A stretch of 64,000 bases of DNA from Schlesneria paludicola DSM 18645. Lineage in GTDB: Bacteria; Planctomycetota; Planctomycetia; Planctomycetales; Planctomycetaceae. Position 1 is the first letter of the stretch. Every line of letters starts with the position of its first letter. This document shows, in pieces, positions 26,921 to 38,018 of this stretch. The DNA lies in assembly GCA_945876035.1 (NCBI GenBank), contig CAMCMU010000005.1, positions 62,001 through 126,000 of the forward strand, in the 5' to 3' direction. A program made the translations under genes and the position numbers. The notes beneath the pieces are model-generated. The model saw only the letters and a list, made by a program, of their open reading frames with translations, was not told the DNA's origin and searched no databases.

Positions 26921-27916
26921 ATGCGAATTGCATTGGACGCGATGGGTGGCGACTTCGGTGTTCAACCCAACATTGACGGAGCAATCACCGCACTGAAGGA
27001 CAACCCGGACCTCCATGTCACACTGGTGGGAGATCTTTCTTCCATCGGTCCCCTGGTCGCCAAGTCGGGGTATCCGATTGACCGTTTGCATCTTCATGCC
27101 TCCGAAGGCTATGTGGAGATGGGTGAAAAGCCGATCGAAGCCCTGCGTCAAAAGCCGAATTGTTCGATCGTCGTGTGCTGGCAATTGATGGCAACCCAGC
27201 AGGTCGATGCGGTTGTGAGTGCAGGGCATACCGGTGCCGTCGTCGCCGCCGGACTGCGGACTCGGTTGTTTCTCAAAGGGGTCAAGCGTCCCGGTATCGC
27301 AGTGGCTCTCCCGACAACCAAGGGCAAGACTATCCTCATGGATGTGGGAGCGAATCCCGGTGCACGCCCCGAGCACCTCGTCCAATACGGAGTCATGGGA
27401 TCCGTGTATTCTCGCGAGATGTTCGGTATTGAGCGGCCGACAGTCGGCTTGATGAACATTGGCAGCGAAGACGGCAAAGGAACGGACGTTCTCCGTGAGT
27501 CACATACGCTATTTTCCCAAAGTCCGTTCCGCGACCAGTTCATTGGGAATATTGAGGGTCGTGAGTTGTATACCGGCGCGGCCGACGTGGTGATTTGTGA
27601 GGGTTTCGTCGGTAATGTGCTACTCAAGGCCGCGGAGGGCTTGGCCGACATGATGATGAAAACAGTCGCGGCCGAGGTGATCGGCGCGCTGAACGTCGAA
27701 CGCGGCCTCGCCACTCAGGCATTTCAAAGTCTCGCGAAGCGGTTCGAATATCACGAAGCGGGTGGCGCCCCTCTCCTCGGAGTGGAGGGACTCTCCATCA
27801 TTTGCCACGGAGCGAGTACCGCACGCTCGATTCACAATGCGTTGCGACTGGCAACAACACTCAAAGCTCGACGAATCAACGAACAAATTGTGGACCTGCT
27901 TTCCCAAAACCCATAA
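26921..27916 (+). CDS. plsX: Phosphate acyltransferase PlsX
   Basis: The protein has 331 residues, the normal length. It begins MRIALDAMGGDFGVQPN, the family signature. Further conserved stretches are SAGHTGAVVAAGLR, ANPGARPEHLVQYG, MNIGSEDGKGTD, and VVICEGFVGNVLLKAAEG. PlsX converts acyl-ACP to acyl-phosphate for the first step of phospholipid synthesis at the inner face of the membrane, feeding PlsY. It lies between rpmF and fabD in the fatty-acid cluster and is probably cotranscribed with rpmF. Confidence 0.96.
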   Translation: MRIALDAMGGDFGVQPNIDGAITALKDNPDLHVTLVGDLSSIGPLVAKSGYPIDRLHLHASEGYVEMGEKPIEALRQKPNCSIVVCWQLMATQQVDAVVSAGHTGAVVAAGLRTRLFLKGVKRPGIAVALPTTKGKTILMDVGANPGARPEHLVQYGVMGSVYSREMFGIERPTVGLMNIGSEDGKGTDVLRESHTLFSQSPFRDQFIGNIEGRELYTGAADVVICEGFVGNVLLKAAEGLADMMMKTVAAEVIGALNVERGLATQAFQSLAKRFEYHEAGGAPLLGVEGLSIICHGASTARSIHNALRLATTLKARRINEQIVDLLSQNP

Positions 27917-28026
27917 ACACCGTTGGTTTGGCCTGCCGCAGTCCGCCGGTTCATGACGCCTTACCTTCCTCGGGTCTGCCTCGTAGCAAGCATCTTCTGT
28001 GCATGGAAATCGGAGACCCTATCGAA

Positions 28027-28938
28027 ATGAGCAATATTACGTTCTTGTTTCCAGGGCAGGGAGCTCAACATGTGGGAATGGGAAAGACCCTTTCGCAAAA
28101 CTATCCCGCCGCGCGTCGCCTGTATGACCAAGCGAATGATCTGCTGGGTTATGACCTTGCCTCAATCTGTTTTGAAGGACCGGCAGAAAAACTGAACACA
28201 ACCGTTGTCAGCCAGCCGGCCATTTTCGTCAGCAGCCTCGCAGCACTGGAAATGTTGAAGGCCGATCGCCCACACGTGGTTGAGTCATGCAAGTTTTCCG
28301 CAGGACTAAGCCTTGGCGAATACACCGCACTCACATTTGCCGGTGCCCTGAGTTTTGAAGACGGACTTCGTGTGGTGCAGGTTCGGGGCGAAGCCATGCA
28401 GGCGGCTGCGGACGCTGTCTCCTCCGGCATGGTCAGCGCCTTGCTGCTCAACCGTGACCAAGTCCAAGAAGTGCTGGACACGTCTTCGTCACGGGGTGGC
28501 ATCTGGATCGCAAACTACCTCTGTCCCGGGAATACGGTTTTGTCGGGGGAAAAAGCGGCGTGTGACCATGCCGCCGATGCGATTATTCAAGCGGGCGGCA
28601 AGCCCGTCGTTTTGGCTGTGGCTGGCGCGTTTCACACGCCACTCATGGAATCGGCGTGCGACAGGCTCAGGGAGGCATTGAGTCGTGCGGCAATTGGCAC
28701 ACCCCAAATCCCCGTCATTTCCAACGTGGACGGCCAAGCACACTCAAATCCGGACGACATTCGACAAAATTTGGTTCGGCAGATGACACAGCCCGTTCTT
28801 TGGGAGGATTCCATGCGGTGGCTCTTGTCTCAAGCAGCAGGTCCATTCTTCGAAATCGGTCCAGGGAAAGTCCTGAAAGGGCTCCTCAAACGGATTGATC
28901 GCAAAGTCGACTGTGAATCAATTAACGACTCGCCCTGA
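28027..28938 (+). CDS. fabD: Malonyl-CoA:ACP transacylase
   Basis: The protein has 303 residues from the ATG at 28027. An ATG at 28003 would add eight residues, and GGAG at ~28011 favours 28027. It begins MSNITFLFPGQGAQHVGMG, typical of FabD. The catalytic Ser is S95 in GLSLGEYTAL, and the catalytic His is in VAGAFHTPLM. The usual bacterial motif is GHSxGE; here Leu replaces the His next to the nucleophile, a form I associate with plant plastid MCAT proteins, with which it also shares IANYLCPGN. It transfers malonyl groups to ACP (AcpP is encoded 288 bases downstream) for chain elongation. Overall catalytic residues are present, so it should be active. Confidence 0.95.
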   Translation: MSNITFLFPGQGAQHVGMGKTLSQNYPAARRLYDQANDLLGYDLASICFEGPAEKLNTTVVSQPAIFVSSLAALEMLKADRPHVVESCKFSAGLSLGEYTALTFAGALSFEDGLRVVQVRGEAMQAAADAVSSGMVSALLLNRDQVQEVLDTSSSRGGIWIANYLCPGNTVLSGEKAACDHAADAIIQAGGKPVVLAVAGAFHTPLMESACDRLREALSRAAIGTPQIPVISNVDGQAHSNPDDIRQNLVRQMTQPVLWEDSMRWLLSQAAGPFFEIGPGKVLKGLLKRIDRKVDCESINDSP

Positions 28939-29226
28939 GATTGCAGTTCCCCTTCGTGGTGATTTTTCAGCGGGTTCTGAACAGATCTTGAGTCTCCTCG
29001 CACCACTACATTCGGGTGTCCACGGATTTCCGAAAAACTGTTTTGGAAGCGATGCCTGCCGAAGTTCCGAATTTTCGCAGGATTGCTGCAGTTTACACGA
29101 CCGAGGAAAGCCGTTATATCTCGCATCCACGATTTGTCATAACGTCACTCAGTGTGGTGATTCAGCCGCTCCTCGGGCGTCTGAATGAGTGTCATCTTTT
29201 TAGTATCTGCTCCAAAGGAGTGAAGC
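28939..29226. other. fabD-acpP spacer with inverted repeat
   Basis: This 288-base spacer lies where many bacteria, and I believe other planctomycetes, carry fabG; no reductase frame or remnant is visible. It contains an inverted repeat ATTCAG (29160-29165) / CTGAAT (29181-29186) with a short inner CGC/GCG pairing. This could fold as a hairpin about 40 bases before the acpP start. AAAGGAG at about 29213-29219 is the acpP ribosome-binding site. Confidence 0.45.
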
Positions 29227-29469
29227 GTGGCGTCGGTCGAAGAGGTCAAAGACAAAGTTATCGGAATCGTCAGTGAGCAACTGAACATCCCCAAAGGGGA
29301 CATTAAGCTGGAGAGTGCGTTTATTGCGGACCTCAAAGCTGATTCCCTCGATTTGGTCGAACTCGTGATGGAGTTTGAGGACGAATTTGGGGTGCAAATT
29401 CCCGAATCCGATCAGGACAAAATTCAAAAAGTTGGCGATGCTGTCAGCTATATCATGGAGAAGCAGTGA
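29227..29469 (+). CDS. acpP: Acyl carrier protein
   Basis: The protein has 80 residues and starts at a GTG with AAAGGAG eight bases upstream. It is strongly acidic. The 4'-phosphopantetheine site is Ser40 in LKADSLDLVELVM, matching the DSL motif of type II ACPs. It carries growing acyl chains for FabD, FabF and PlsX, all encoded in this cluster. The gene ends 3 bases before fabF, so the two are surely cotranscribed. Confidence 0.96.
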   Translation: MASVEEVKDKVIGIVSEQLNIPKGDIKLESAFIADLKADSLDLVELVMEFEDEFGVQIPESDQDKIQKVGDAVSYIMEKQ

Positions 29470-29472
29470 GCG

Positions 29473-30717
29473 ATGGCCAGACGCGTCGTCGTGACAGGGA
29501 TGTCGGTCGTCACCGCTCTCGGGATTGATCTCGTAGAGTTTTGGGGGGCCCTATGCGCCGGGAGAAGTGGAGTCAGTCGGCTGGAACGCTTCGATTGCTC
29601 TGACTTTAAGGTGAACTTTGGCGGCGAGGTGAAGGATTTCAAACCGGAAGATCACTTCGACGGCAAAGAAGCACGTCGGTTAGATCGATTCAGCCAGTTT
29701 GCCTTGGCGGCGGCGAAGAAAGCGGTCGCTCAAAGCGGAATCGTGTTTTCCGAGGAGTCGGATCCCTATCGCTGTGGCGTCATCGTGGGTAGCGGTATCG
29801 GAGGCCTCAACGAGATCGAGGAACAGCACGCCAAGCTGTTTGATCGGGGGCCCTCCCGTGTTTCCCCGTTGATGATTCCGAAACTGATGGTTAACGCGGC
29901 AAGCGGAAACATTTCCGTAACGTGGGGTTTGAAGGGTCCCAGTAGTGCCGTCGCCACCGCATGCGCTTCCGGTAGCAACGCCATTGGAGATGCGTTTCGA
30001 GTGATCCAACACGACGTCGCTGATGTGATGATTGCGGGTGGCAGCGAGGCAGCCATCACCCCGATGGGTCTCTCCGGATTTGCCCGCATGGGCGCGTTGT
30101 CCACTCGCATGGACGCTCCAGAATCCGCCAGTCGTCCGTTTGACAGAGATCGCGACGGATTTGTACTTTCCGAAGGTGCCGGCGTCGTTGTGCTCGAAGA
30201 ATACGAGCATGCCAGACGCCGCGGGGCACCTCTTTTTGCGGAAGTGCTCGGCTACGGAATGTCCTCCGATGGATCGCACATGACCGCTCCCGATCCCGAA
30301 GGAACGGGAGCCGCACGGGCGATGAGCTCGTCTCTCCAAGATGCTCGAGTCAATCCCGATCAGGTCGCCTATGTCAATGCACACGGCACAAGTACGCCGT
30401 TGGGTGACAAGGCGGAAACCGCGGCCATCAAAAAGGTTTTCGGCTCATTTGCTAAGAATGGCCTGTGCGTCTCGAGTACAAAGAGTCAACTGGGGCATCT
30501 GCTCGGAGCTTCTGGAGGTGTGGAATTTGTCATTGCCGCATTGTCCTTGATGCATCAAACCGTCCCACCAACAATCAACATCGAGAATCCGGATCCCGAA
30601 TGTGACCTCGACTTCGTGCCGAATACTCCAAGGTCATTGAAATTGGAACGAGTGCTGTCGAACAGTTTTGGATTTGGTGGACACAATGCGTGTCTTGTCG
30701 TTGGTCGCATTGGATAA
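29473..30717 (+). CDS. fabF: 3-oxoacyl-[ACP] synthase II
   Basis: The protein has 414 residues, the usual FabF length. The thiolase-fold catalytic triad is complete: Cys164 in TACASGSNAIGDA, the first His in VNAHGTSTPLGDK, the second His in QLGHLLGASGG. MARRVVVTGMSVVTALG at the N-terminus and FGFGGHNA at the C-terminus are canonical. It elongates acyl-ACP with malonyl-ACP in the cytoplasm. It follows acpP by 3 bases. A related but catalytically altered paralogue lies 313 bases downstream on the same strand. Confidence 0.97.
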   Translation: MARRVVVTGMSVVTALGIDLVEFWGALCAGRSGVSRLERFDCSDFKVNFGGEVKDFKPEDHFDGKEARRLDRFSQFALAAAKKAVAQSGIVFSEESDPYRCGVIVGSGIGGLNEIEEQHAKLFDRGPSRVSPLMIPKLMVNAASGNISVTWGLKGPSSAVATACASGSNAIGDAFRVIQHDVADVMIAGGSEAAITPMGLSGFARMGALSTRMDAPESASRPFDRDRDGFVLSEGAGVVVLEEYEHARRRGAPLFAEVLGYGMSSDGSHMTAPDPEGTGAARAMSSSLQDARVNPDQVAYVNAHGTSTPLGDKAETAAIKKVFGSFAKNGLCVSSTKSQLGHLLGASGGVEFVIAALSLMHQTVPPTINIENPDPECDLDFVPNTPRSLKLERVLSNSFGFGGHNACLVVGRIG

Positions 30718-31030
30718 CGTCATCAAATAAGCCGCGATCTGTTTTGTGGCGGATCGCGTGGAAACAGCTGTTGGTAAATGAAGGGGAAGCATTGTTATTC
30801 AGTTCCGTCGGTTGCATACGGCAGCCAGTTCGATTCTTCTAACGTCGATTTTAGGTCACTGAGCGGGAAGGCTACCGCTGTTTCTTGGTGTTGCTCGAAT
30901 TCCATAGTGTCCCATACCACAACAATGCTCCTGAACAATAGTCGTGGCGTTAGACCTTCTTGAGGTGAACCTCATCAGCGGTTGTTTGACGTTCCCATAA
31001 TTGTGGTCAGCGAGCACAGTTTGAGTGAAA
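30718..31030. other. Spacer between fabF and the KS-like gene
   Basis: About 313 bases with no supported gene. A short inverted repeat CGCGATC (30733-30739) / GATCGCG (30752-30758) with a 12-base loop lies just after fabF and could be a weak transcript end, but no T-run follows. The downstream gene may therefore have its own promoter, which I could not pinpoint. Confidence 0.35.
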
Positions 31031-32347
31031 ATGAACGTTCCCGAACAGACCAATCGACAGGCCGTCATCACTGGCATCGGTATTTTGAGTCCCATCGGAA
31101 TCGGTGTTGATTCTTTTTGGAAGAATTTGTCCGAAGGTCAATCCGGTGTCCATCAATGCGACCTTTTCCCGGGTTATGCCGCCCCGGATGGTGTCGGTGG
31201 TGCGGTCACCGAATTCACCGAAGAATCTGCCCGAAAGATTTATCTGAAGGATCAGCGAAAAAACATTAAGGCGATGTGCCGGGAAATTCAGCTTGGCGTC
31301 GCTTCGGCAGGCTTGGCCCTCCAACATTCCGGTGTGAAATTGGAGGCCATCGATCACGAACGTCTGGGTGTGGAATTCGGTGCGAACCTGATGTTGAGTT
31401 CCCCTGACATCCTTGCGGAGAGTTGTTCGGACTGCTGTGAAGAGGATTCTACGGTCTTTCAGTTTTCGCGATGGGGCCAAGAGGGGCTCGCAAAAATGGA
31501 GCCACTGTGGCTGCTTCGATATCTGCCAAACATGCCCGCGTGTCACATTAGCATTTCCTCGGATGCGCGGGGGCCGAGTAATTCGCTGACGCTCGACGAT
31601 GCCTCTGGCAATGCCGTCTTAGGAGAAGCAATGCGGATATTGCTGCGAGGGCATGCGGATGTGATGATCACCGGTGCCACCGGAACGACGCTCCATCCAA
31701 TTAAGACGCTTCACCTCGCTCTCTGGAACGATCTGGCGCGGACACCGGACGCCCCCGAAGCTCGCTGCCGCCCGTTTGACCTTGAGCGATCAGGACGAGT
31801 CGTTGGTGAGGGTGCCTGTACTTTCATCCTTGAAGACCGCCTGCACGCGGAAAAAAGAGGAGCAAAAATTTGGGCGCGGCTGCTGGGAACCGGCTCTTCT
31901 TGTGTCTTCAATCCTTCGGGTGTGAATGGCATGCGTCTGGCGTTGGTGAACGCCATGCGAGCCGCCTTGCGCTCTTGCGGCATGAACCCTGAAGGGATCG
32001 GCCACATCAATGCGCATGGCCTAGGAACACAGCAGGCCGATATCGAAGAAGCCAAAGCGATACTCGAAGTTTTTGGACCCGTGTTAGGGCGTCGGATTCC
32101 GGTCACCGCCCCCAAGAGCTTCATGGGAAATTCTGGAGCCGGCAGCGGGACTCTCGAATTGGCGGCCTCTTTAGTGGGCCTCAGTCATGGACTCATTCCA
32201 CAGACATTGAATTATCAGACACCCGACCCGAATTGCCCACTGAACATCGTCACCGCGCAACCGTTGGAGACCGATAATCGAATCGTGCTCAACATCAATG
32301 TTTCACGCGCCGGGCAGGCCACTGCAGCAATCGTGGAAGTTTACTGA
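31031..32347 (+). CDS. FabF-like ketosynthase paralogue without catalytic Cys (chain-length-factor-like)
   Basis: The protein has 438 residues from the ATG at 31031 (a GTG two codons upstream is possible). It is a full-length beta-ketoacyl synthase fold starting RQAVITGIGILSPIGIGVDS. Aligned without gaps to FabF, the nucleophile Cys is Asp190 (LTLDDASGNAVLGEA versus TACASGSNAIGDA). The first His is kept (His329, INAHGLGTQ), the Lys is kept (Lys362), and the second His is Asn367 (MGNSGAG versus LGHLLGA). It therefore cannot do the normal Claisen condensation. Such proteins are usually partners of an active KS, as the chain length factor is in type II polyketide synthases, though that group has Gln at the Cys site. 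It may pair with FabF or another KS elsewhere. Confidence 0.85.
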   Translation: MNVPEQTNRQAVITGIGILSPIGIGVDSFWKNLSEGQSGVHQCDLFPGYAAPDGVGGAVTEFTEESARKIYLKDQRKNIKAMCREIQLGVASAGLALQHSGVKLEAIDHERLGVEFGANLMLSSPDILAESCSDCCEEDSTVFQFSRWGQEGLAKMEPLWLLRYLPNMPACHISISSDARGPSNSLTLDDASGNAVLGEAMRILLRGHADVMITGATGTTLHPIKTLHLALWNDLARTPDAPEARCRPFDLERSGRVVGEGACTFILEDRLHAEKRGAKIWARLLGTGSSCVFNPSGVNGMRLALVNAMRAALRSCGMNPEGIGHINAHGLGTQQADIEEAKAILEVFGPVLGRRIPVTAPKSFMGNSGAGSGTLELAASLVGLSHGLIPQTLNYQTPDPNCPLNIVTAQPLETDNRIVLNINVSRAGQATAAIVEVY

Positions 32348-32406
32348 GTTCAGAAATCCGGACCGGTCCTGAATAGAGAGACCGTTGACTCCGTCATCTG
32401 GCGCTC

Positions 32407-33843
32407 TCACGGGGCGGTAGGAAACGACTTCAATGCGAATTGGGCGCCTCGATAAGCAGACAAGTGAACGCATTTCATTTTGAGGGCTTGCTGATAGAAT
32501 GCGATGGCATTCGTGTTATCACCAGCGTCGGACCTTCGTTTTGCGATGAAGTAATAGGCTTCACAAAGCTGGGGGTCCCTCAGGCTGGAATTGGAATCGG
32601 TGGCTTTGACAACGGAGTTGACGAGGTCCTGTTCCGAATTCTTCCCGATCAAAAACAAAACCAGCTGGTCGTTCCAGTCACGATCTGCGGCCGGCTTTTT
32701 GTCCAATGTCTTGACTAACGCAAGTTGTTCGTCCGAATTTTTCAGCAAGACCGACACCCAGCAACGCCACGGGTTCAGATAACGTATGCTCGCGTCCAAC
32801 GCAATCGCCTGATTGAATGCCTCTAAAGAGCCCGCAAAGTCTCCAGAAAAAAACTTTGCGAATCCGAGGTCCCCAAACGCCACAGAGTTCCGTGGATCGA
32901 TCCGAATCGACTGACCATAATCGTCAATCGCTCCGGCGGCGTTCCCCCGAGACAATCGGCAGTTACCACGAAGAAGAAGGAAGACTGGGTTCGCTGAATC
33001 GAGCTTGATCGCTTCCGTAAAATCGACTTCCGCAGCGAGAAGATTTCCAGCCGCCTGCTGCGTGACCCCGCGATTCGTGTAGGCCACGGCAAATTGGGGG
33101 TCGAGTTGCAACGCCTTATCGAAATCGACCATCGCTTCGTTCAGCCGGTTTTTCTGTTGCAGGAACAGACCTCGGTTGTTGAACACGAGGGGATTGCCGG
33201 AAAACGTCTCCACAGCGACAGAAAATGCCGCAAGAGCCTTTTCCGTTTGCTGGCGGACGACATAGACCTCGGCGAGACCGACATGCGATCCAAGATGTCC
33301 TGGAAAACTCTGGATGGCCGCTTGATAGTCTTGAATCGCGGCTTCCAGATCTCGCAGATGAACGAAGGCACCGGCGCGTTGGTAGAGCACATTCGCCCGT
33401 TGCTCAGATGTCAGAGTTTTGCGTTCCAACAGTGATGTTGCCACTTTTATGACGCTCTCTGCGGATTCTTTCCGCCCTTCAAGATTCGCAAGAGCAGTCA
33501 TGCCGTGCAGATATGGAACATAATAGTTCACTTCGTTAAGCTTCAACGACTCGCTCAACTTCAACGATGCACGGGCGTCTTCAATCCCTTTGCGAAGCTC
33601 CTGAGCGTTTCTTCGGAACACTCCAACCTCGACATGAGAAACCGCGCGCAAGTACAGGGCTCCATGGTCTGTGGGATTCCCCAGCAGAAGTCGATCCGTG
33701 ATTTCGATACACCTTGGAAAATCCCCATTCTGATACGCCACTTCCGCCTCAGTCTTCAGCGCATCAGATCCCGCTTCTTTTTGGGCGATGGCAATGCCCG
33801 TCAAACATAGAAAAAAGACGAGCCCGCGAATTGGCATAGACAT
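32407..33843 (-). CDS. Exported TPR-repeat protein
   Basis: The protein has 478 residues from the ATG at 33841-33843; a second ATG is two codons on. The frame is open to 33945 but that extension lacks a start-like context. A signal peptide (PIRGLVFFLCLTGIAIAQ) is followed by about nine to ten tetratricopeptide repeats covering most of the protein, for example NNRGLFLQQKNRLNEAMVDF and AYTNRGVTQQAAGNLLAAEV. TPRs build a helical scaffold that binds proteins, so it probably assembles an envelope complex. Divergent from the rhomboid gene, with a palindrome between them. No further partner can be named. Confidence 0.82.
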   Translation of the reverse strand: MSMPIRGLVFFLCLTGIAIAQKEAGSDALKTEAEVAYQNGDFPRCIEITDRLLLGNPTDHGALYLRAVSHVEVGVFRRNAQELRKGIEDARASLKLSESLKLNEVNYYVPYLHGMTALANLEGRKESAESVIKVATSLLERKTLTSEQRANVLYQRAGAFVHLRDLEAAIQDYQAAIQSFPGHLGSHVGLAEVYVVRQQTEKALAAFSVAVETFSGNPLVFNNRGLFLQQKNRLNEAMVDFDKALQLDPQFAVAYTNRGVTQQAAGNLLAAEVDFTEAIKLDSANPVFLLLRGNCRLSRGNAAGAIDDYGQSIRIDPRNSVAFGDLGFAKFFSGDFAGSLEAFNQAIALDASIRYLNPWRCWVSVLLKNSDEQLALVKTLDKKPAADRDWNDQLVLFLIGKNSEQDLVNSVVKATDSNSSLRDPQLCEAYYFIAKRRSDAGDNTNAIAFYQQALKMKCVHLSAYRGAQFALKSFPTAP

Positions 33844-34123
33844 GGCAAAATCTCGCAGATCAAATGGAGAACATTCCGGCGAAGCAAGTCCGGCACAACG
33901 CCACAGATTCAACTCGGAATCCCTATTTCCGTCAACATCGGTCATGAGCCGGACAGTTCTCCACGCTCGAATTTTTGCCAGTCATTCCTTGGCTGGAGTC
34001 TGAATATCAGGTCGGCACCGTCGTCCTGGAACTCCGGTACCGAGAAACCGTTTCTCCCGACAGATCCACCAGTTTGCTACGCTTCCCAATGTTCCATGTG
34101 CCTCAAGTTCCGAGTGATACGAT
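33844..34123. other. Divergent spacer between TPR and rhomboid genes
   Basis: About 280 bases upstream of both divergent genes. No supported coding frame. Its right side borders a 16-base palindrome listed separately. I cannot assign promoters with confidence. Confidence 0.4.
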
Positions 34124-37211: not shown

Positions 37212-37496
<285 letters not shown>

Positions 37497-38018
37497 CAAT
37501 TATAACCTCAAAAAACTCTGACTATGGACGAGATGCCAACCAACAGGCATCAAATGATGTCTCTCGAAAACAGACGCAACCACTGGACAAATCGAATTTG
37601 CCGCCCACAATTTCGGCGATCTCCAGAAGGACAATTCTTACAGGTACCACCCGCAACATCGCCGACTGGATAGCCGAGACTCAAATACTTGTCAAGCGAG
37701 TCACCATCGGGCGAATGAAAATACGATGAAATGATCGGCCGAACAATTTCGCAGCTGATCGGAATCGATGGACAGAAGTCAACGAAACACAACTCAACTG
37801 ACATCCGTCGATACATCCCGAACGATGCAACTTGTCGGCATCTTGGAATCACCGCGGAAGAACGAGAATGGGGACAGCGGCCGACGCAATCCGAAAAAGC
37901 AAGACTCTTGCGCCCCGAACGGCCAGACACTCTAGGAGGAAACCGATACTCCAAGAGGAAGCCCGAGAGAACTCTGACTTGGTCGCTTACTCGATAATTG
38001 CTCCGCGGCTGGAACCTG
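37497..38018. other. Intergenic region between poly-Asp gene and Bat operon
   Basis: About 520 bases upstream of the Bat operon leader, divergent between the poly-Asp gene and moxR. Overlapping frames on both strands have no family similarity and unlikely composition, so I call no gene. Promoters for both directions are expected here. Confidence 0.4.

Follow-up and report, generated by a model that had tools for sequence, protein, structure and literature searches.

The window, by which we mean the whole stretch of 64,000 nucleotides from Schlesneria paludicola DSM 18645 analysed here, carries a fatty-acid cluster on its plus strand. In this cluster plsX (FA_synthesis family, 26921..27916), fabD (acyl transferase domain, 28018..28938), acpP (29227..29469) and a canonical fabF (29473..30717) follow one another on the same strand, and after a gap of 313 bp they are followed by the gene that we call copy A (31031..32347). 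By translation, copy A encodes 438 amino acids, and we describe its product as a putative KS-beta, a chain-length-factor-like pseudo-ketosynthase. An alternative in-frame GTG start lies at 31025, 6 bp upstream. Terminator-like sites number 7 over 29100-32700, where shuffling predicts 4.3 (sd 2.3), and one such site (30862-30879, plus strand) falls in the gap between fabF and copy A; these numbers give no guidance on cotranscription with fabF. The neighbour at this locus, fabF, encodes a possible alternative partner for copy A; no active KS-alpha stands alongside.

On the minus strand a TPR-repeat-like gene, judged so by eye, faces copy A (32407-33945), and a similar gene occupies the equivalent place in several genomes of the genus and family. 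Further along the window, a 95-aa ORF on the minus strand (37212-37499) consists largely of aspartate runs and ends in an Asp stretch and a final Glu.

A full-length ketosynthase with a changed active site

The residues of copy A were placed by alignment to the window's own FabF and to solved FabFs. Asp190 (codon GAT, 31598..31600) occupies the position of the nucleophilic Cys163/164 of FabF and Asn367 (32129..32131) that of the second His, with the first catalytic His, His329 (32015..32017), and Lys362 (32114..32116) retained, all on the plus strand. The pattern of four residues reported by an earlier sequence-only reading is thereby confirmed, for Asp190 down to the codon. That reading had also called the match to FabF gapless, which is correct around the active-site motifs only; across the full alignment the two differ by insertions (438 vs 414 aa), and identity to the window's own FabF is 31%. 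Its description of a full-length KAS-II-like protein inside a fatty-acid cluster agrees with the length, with the fab neighbours and with the detection of both ketosynthase domains (Pfam, 9.8e-29 and 2.3e-20). Against TIGR03150 copy A scores 251.4 bits, below the cut-off of 493.75 that the adjacent FabF passes with 610.6 bits, and it lacks the combination of Cys-His-Lys-His tetrad and GFGG loop by which a FabF or KAS II is recognised. The Gln of Gln-type chain length factors (CLFs) is absent as well, Asp standing at that site.

The predicted structure of copy A has the KAS fold (pLDDT 95.5), with a Foldseek TM score of 0.92 to 1kas by target length. Foldseek and VIA-align both placed KAS II structures first. 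In Z, KS-alpha chains taken from KS-CLF pairs (1tqy_A, 6kxd_A) followed closely; the 50 matches listed were mostly KAS II, and nothing follows from the fact that no chain among them was named CLF.

Relatives of copy A and the PLW signature

To describe the relatives we assembled 90 ketosynthase-type proteins without the full Cys-His-Lys-His (CHKH) tetrad, copy A included, and compared them with 92 tetrad-bearing rows. The 90 are made up of 63 non-redundant proteins and 27 from further loci, 26 of the latter outside the window's family (L347 belongs to it). Our first survey of relatives kept ORFs of 380-620 aa and the survey of further loci those of at least 330 aa, with partial copies (such as L030, L044) dropped; the tally of 182/244 in the parent survey includes active ketosynthases and is no count of KS-beta. 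Of the 40 stretches behind the further loci, one consisted of a 10-base placeholder; among the remaining 39, 12 held only tetrad-bearing ketosynthases (L312-L314, L316, L340, L343-L345, L348-L351).

Alignment of the pseudo-ketosynthases revealed a signature, PLWLLRYLPNMPACHI, at residues 158-173 of copy A (31502..31549, plus strand). The stretch PLWLLKYLPNMPACHI is conserved, and its P-L/M/I-W-L/M/I-L/I core is found in 88/90 pseudo-ketosynthases and in 13/92 tetrad-bearing rows, none of them a KS-alpha or the window's own FabF. Judging from FabF structures, we take this stretch to sit at the dimer interface, where it would reach the partner's acyl pocket. The motif alone does not mark a dead enzyme, since the 13 proteins (L312, L313, L314, L316, L112, L114, L115, L117-L119, L121, L124, L125) combine a PLWLLKxLPNM-type stretch with an intact Cys-His-Lys-His tetrad. 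At L312-L314 and L316, and in a family designated f19, one PLW-bearing active ketosynthase stands in tandem with another active ketosynthase, an arrangement that may preserve the stage preceding loss of the Cys. Elsewhere in the protein, TAPKSFMGNSGAG of copy A is closer to the TAPKS(M/L)xGRLxAG of Gln-type CLFs than to SSTKSQLGHLLGA of FabF.

Many pseudo-ketosynthases occur in tandem with active ketosynthases

Outside the window's family many of the pseudo-ketosynthases examined stand in tandem. An active CHKH ketosynthase lies within 1 kb of the pseudo-ketosynthase in 22/27 further loci; these stretches were hand-chosen from the matches listed, so that neither this figure nor the 24/27 acidic residues at the Cys column of the same sample is a random-sample rate. 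In several families of the window's class (L054-L056, L058, L059, L087, L113, L129-L136) the active ketosynthases in tandem with them belong to one clade, and pseudo-ketosynthases of Phycisphaerae (L063, L064, L067) are in tandem with active ketosynthases of the same clade. Tandem pairs are also present in L065, L094 and L106-L108. For other members of the window's class (L050-L053, L057) no active ketosynthase was found within the examined stretch. The pair in L065 (8001-10700), a record titled Alphaproteobacteria bacterium, is of the Phycisphaerae type with E at the Cys place and Met at both His positions, and probably reflects a mislabelled bin or a transfer.

Some tandem pairs have further biosynthetic neighbours. 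Among the 10 neighbours scanned around the pair in G052 (L083) we found two FabA/Z-like dehydratases, an ACP, an alpha/beta hydrolase and a GH3-type enzyme, and no reductase; several of these neighbour protein clusters recur in L084, L085, L087 and L095. The alpha/beta hydrolase lies beside KS-alpha (L082:8410-9357, L083:9093-10151), with the same protein cluster in L082, L083, L085, L086 and L087, and could serve in product release.

In the window's family the arrangement is different: copy A, KS-alpha and a second paralogue, copy B, are unlinked, and there are usually one KS-alpha and two beta copies. Copy B of the genome under study (G000:C73) is 44% identical to copy A, has Glu at the Cys place and keeps both His residues. 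It adjoins a pyrroline-5-carboxylate reductase (proC-like) gene, as does its orthologue in G003 and not that in G032, i.e. in 2/3 genomes looked at. At the locus of the genome's KS-alpha (G000:C2) there are a short-chain reductase (SDR), an ACP and two FabA/Z-like proteins, both of which retain the His and Glu of the FabZ motif, and no pseudo-ketosynthase. A highly reducing type II PKS would bring together KS, KS-beta, ketoreductase, dehydratases and ACP in one cluster; of these, no KS-beta was found at G000:C2, and no reductase among the neighbours scanned in G052. Across 31 family genomes, copy A, copy B, KS-alpha and FabF were each detected in 30, and copy A, copy B and KS-alpha together in 28, counts that rest on E-value cut-offs, so that a miss may reflect the cut-off or a draft assembly.

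Common descent of the pseudo-ketosynthases

Copy A shares common descent with the tandem-encoded pseudo-ketosynthases. After removal of near-duplicates at 78% identity (166 to 122 rows), the 63 pseudo-ketosynthases formed one clade in a quick tree (SH-aLRT 99), and in a more careful tree 34 chosen pseudo-ketosynthases, including the exceptions with N and Q at the Cys column, did the same (100/99). A 68-row tree was computed without the odd members L321, L317, L328, L043 and L336, the Gln-type CLF and matching KS references, and L012, with ORFs of at least 560 aa cut to their last 470 residues. Here KS-beta is one clade (100/97) that joins two Streptomyces reducing-type KS-beta (90/98); both together join the PLW-bearing active ketosynthases (90/95), and KS-alpha in turn groups with the ketosynthases from those two Streptomyces clusters (89/92). 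When most of the omitted sequences, Gln-type CLFs and odd members, were included, all dead ketosynthases came together with only 55/90, and the grouping of KS-beta with reducing-type KS-beta was absent from the best tree without being rejected (p-AU 0.471). The link to known KS-beta proteins therefore varies with sampling and is weak when these sequences are included.

KS-alpha or FabF as the possible partner of copy A

Because copy A and fabF are adjacent in many family genomes, FabF has to be considered as the partner. According to this explanation the adjacent housekeeping FabF would have gained copy A as a partner that regulates it or sets chain length, and the heterodimer would tune membrane fatty acids. 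The position of copy A 313 bp behind fabF in an acpP-fabF cluster speaks for it, as does its linkage to fabF, same strand and no more than 1.5 kb away, in 14/20 family genomes with both genes on one contig. In the other 6/20, however, copy A is apart from fabF or on the opposite strand and has nevertheless been retained (linkage was scored by eye in 31 genomes: 14 near, 6 apart, 9 on different contigs and 2 without one of the genes). The tandem relatives, moreover, sit with a different ketosynthase clade. Mirror-tree analysis gives FabF no preference either: after removing PlsX the correlation was 0.347 for copy A with KS-alpha and 0.317 for copy A with FabF (26 genomes), and all six partial correlations were positive (0.32-0.50), so that KS-alpha and FabF are not separated as partner. 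Finally, the interface stretch reads PNMPACH in copy A and PNMPAGH in the genome's own KS-alpha, but VNAASGN in its FabF; several other KS-alpha proteins differ from PNMPAxH (e.g. L054, PGTASAH). Taken together, we regard a pairing with FabF as unlikely. We infer that KS-alpha (G000:C2) would be the partner in the heterodimer, mainly because the tandem relatives pair with the KS-alpha clade and, more weakly, because of the shared PNMPAxH stretch.

An acidic residue at the position of the nucleophile

The acid that replaces the nucleophile is conserved. At the Cys column 84 of the 90 proteins without the tetrad have Asp or Glu, copy A included, none has Cys, and the six exceptions carry G, A, S, S, N and Q. 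Among the rare pseudo-ketosynthases L321, L328 and L332, which have Asn, Gln or Ser for the acid, L328 has Gln like the classical CLFs. Asp190 is hence no peculiarity of a single genome, which would have spoken against the sequence-only reading, and the subclass suggested there is supported in that dead, CLF-like ketosynthases with an acid in place of the Gln form a conserved group. In the non-redundant set of 63, copy A included, the column contains E 39, D 21, G 1, A 1 and S 1 times. Orthologues of copy A within the genus have D, except L011 with E, and the rest of the family mostly has E; in the family sample the residue is acidic in 29/30 A copies and 30/30 B copies, and KS-alpha has Cys in 30/30. 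Of the columns that are well filled, two alone, positions 85 and 190, combine at least 90% acidic residues with shares above one fifth for both D and E.

The residues around it have fared differently. As aligned, the 90 proteins retain the first His in 60 cases, Lys in 72 and the second His in 15 (Asn stands there in 54), Thr270 in 5, Thr305 in 13 and Phe400 of the GFGG loop in 9 (counted in the 90-row alignment; the F400 column of the 63-protein analysis is one Phe upstream). The 46 KS-alpha rows, picked by their Cys motif and thus having Cys by selection, keep the first His, Lys, second His, Thr270, Thr305 and Phe400. On a tree of the 63 proteins built without the active-site columns, the Cys column underwent at least 15 changes, only 3 of which left the acidic class; the first His changed 13 times, the second His 15 times and Lys 3 times. 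Since Lys changes slowly as well, the acid is not alone as a conserved vestige of the former active site.

Such conservation raises the question of a new reaction with Asp or Glu as nucleophile or base, a different chemistry that the sequence-only reading had considered. In its favour, conservation is stricter for the acid than for the first His (84/90 vs 60/90), and the many changes at the column stay almost entirely within the acidic class. As aligned, however, most members have lost the second His, Phe400 and both Thr270 and Thr305, and one third have lost the first His, which leaves little of a shared active site; six members do without the acid altogether. Ordinary condensation is very unlikely for this reason, and so is one shared new reaction; we consider the latter highly improbable, and the suggestion of a different reaction is not supported. 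That copy A might be a decaying, functionless duplicate of FabF, as its lost catalytic residues could suggest, can hardly be maintained and is refuted as far as conservation can show: the gene is full length with its motif conserved, is found in 30/31 family genomes at E 1e-122, and is under purifying selection (omega 0.036-0.053, median 0.044, in 7 usable pairs within the genus; fabF median 0.026 in ten pairs), which also answers the concern that selection on it might be relaxed.

Discussion

We think it likely that copy A is a non-catalytic, CLF-like KS-beta that dimerises with an active KS-alpha to set chain length or specificity. In the mechanism that we propose, KS-beta would retain the ketosynthase fold, with the nucleophile, the second His, the Thr residues contacting phosphopantetheine and the GFGG loop gone, and would pair with KS-alpha as a heterodimer. 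Residues of its interface, the PLWLLKYLPNM stretch, would enter the acyl pocket of the partner, and chain length or specificity might thereby be set in a reducing type II system of KS-alpha, two FabZ-like dehydratases, ACP and reductase. At the dead elbow, the carboxylate would either bar malonyl and acyl groups from the pocket or hold the pocket structurally. A structural or pocket-closing role of the acid is probable, as a carboxylate would be expected to disfavour malonyl binding; this role, like any effect on chain length, is inferred.

A more tentative idea, which we consider rather doubtful, is that the family possesses a split synthase in which one KS-alpha pairs with either copy A or copy B, and copy A possibly with FabF as well. 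Swapping the silent subunit would then switch the product, and the carboxylate would close the pocket. If this were true, pocket closure by the carboxylate would set these proteins apart from classical chain length factors with their Gln.

The presence of copy A, copy B and KS-alpha in 28/31 family genomes points to what is probably a core lipid or envelope chemistry, in a phylum with unusual lipids that lack a good explanation. A KS-beta assignment of copy A would add a conserved acidic form to the known KS-alpha/KS-beta scheme. The 13 PLW-bearing relatives with an intact tetrad may reveal how a KS-beta arises, and the system would be suited to testing whether a ketosynthase can be reprogrammed by exchange of its silent subunit.

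The substitution itself has been in print since 2009. In a study of ladderanes Rattray (PMC2649909) tabulated Asp163 and Glu163 for the Rhodopirellula baltica FabF paralogues RB3714 and RB4527 and took them for deviant paralogues of the kind seen in Kuenenia; the portion of that paper available to us draws no link to KS-alpha/beta. RB3714 and RB4527 may be orthologues of copies A and B. A connection with ladderanes was considered because of this study, but no anammox locus was identified here. Planctomycetes are listed among the phyla with KS-CLF pairs in a further paper, at least in the part accessible to us (PMC10132072), whose main text contains neither 'cysteine' nor 'glutamine'; general background is given in excerpts of PMC8358021, PMC10698177 and PMC4982196. 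Titles and the beginnings of abstracts, with few subscription journals covered, yielded no paper that gives these planctomycete proteins an assignment, or that deals with acidic KS-beta proteins as a family or with their separation from KS-alpha. Judged by sequence, this putative acidic KS-beta family spans planctomycete bacteria.

With FabF (KAS II) copy A has the fold in common and lacks the Cys, the second His and the GFGG motif. Loading KS-Q domains carry Gln at the Cys site, and both they and copy A have thus exchanged Cys for a polar residue; copy A and its relatives have Asp or Glu instead, in a free-standing protein rather than a module. With the KS-beta/CLF subunits known from type II polyketide synthases (the actinorhodin and ishigamide KS-CLF pairs are examples), copy A shares the KAS fold, the lost nucleophile and the lost GFGG loop; subunits of that kind are encoded in tandem with an active ketosynthase, as are most of the further relatives of copy A examined. 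Lys is kept in both, whereas the second His has become Asn in copy A and Arg in the Gln-type CLF. At the Cys column, Asp or Glu is found here, Gln in two reference CLFs and Ala in two Streptomyces reducing-type KS-beta. Unlike in KS-CLF pairs, the gene in the window's family is unlinked from KS-alpha and is present in two copies.
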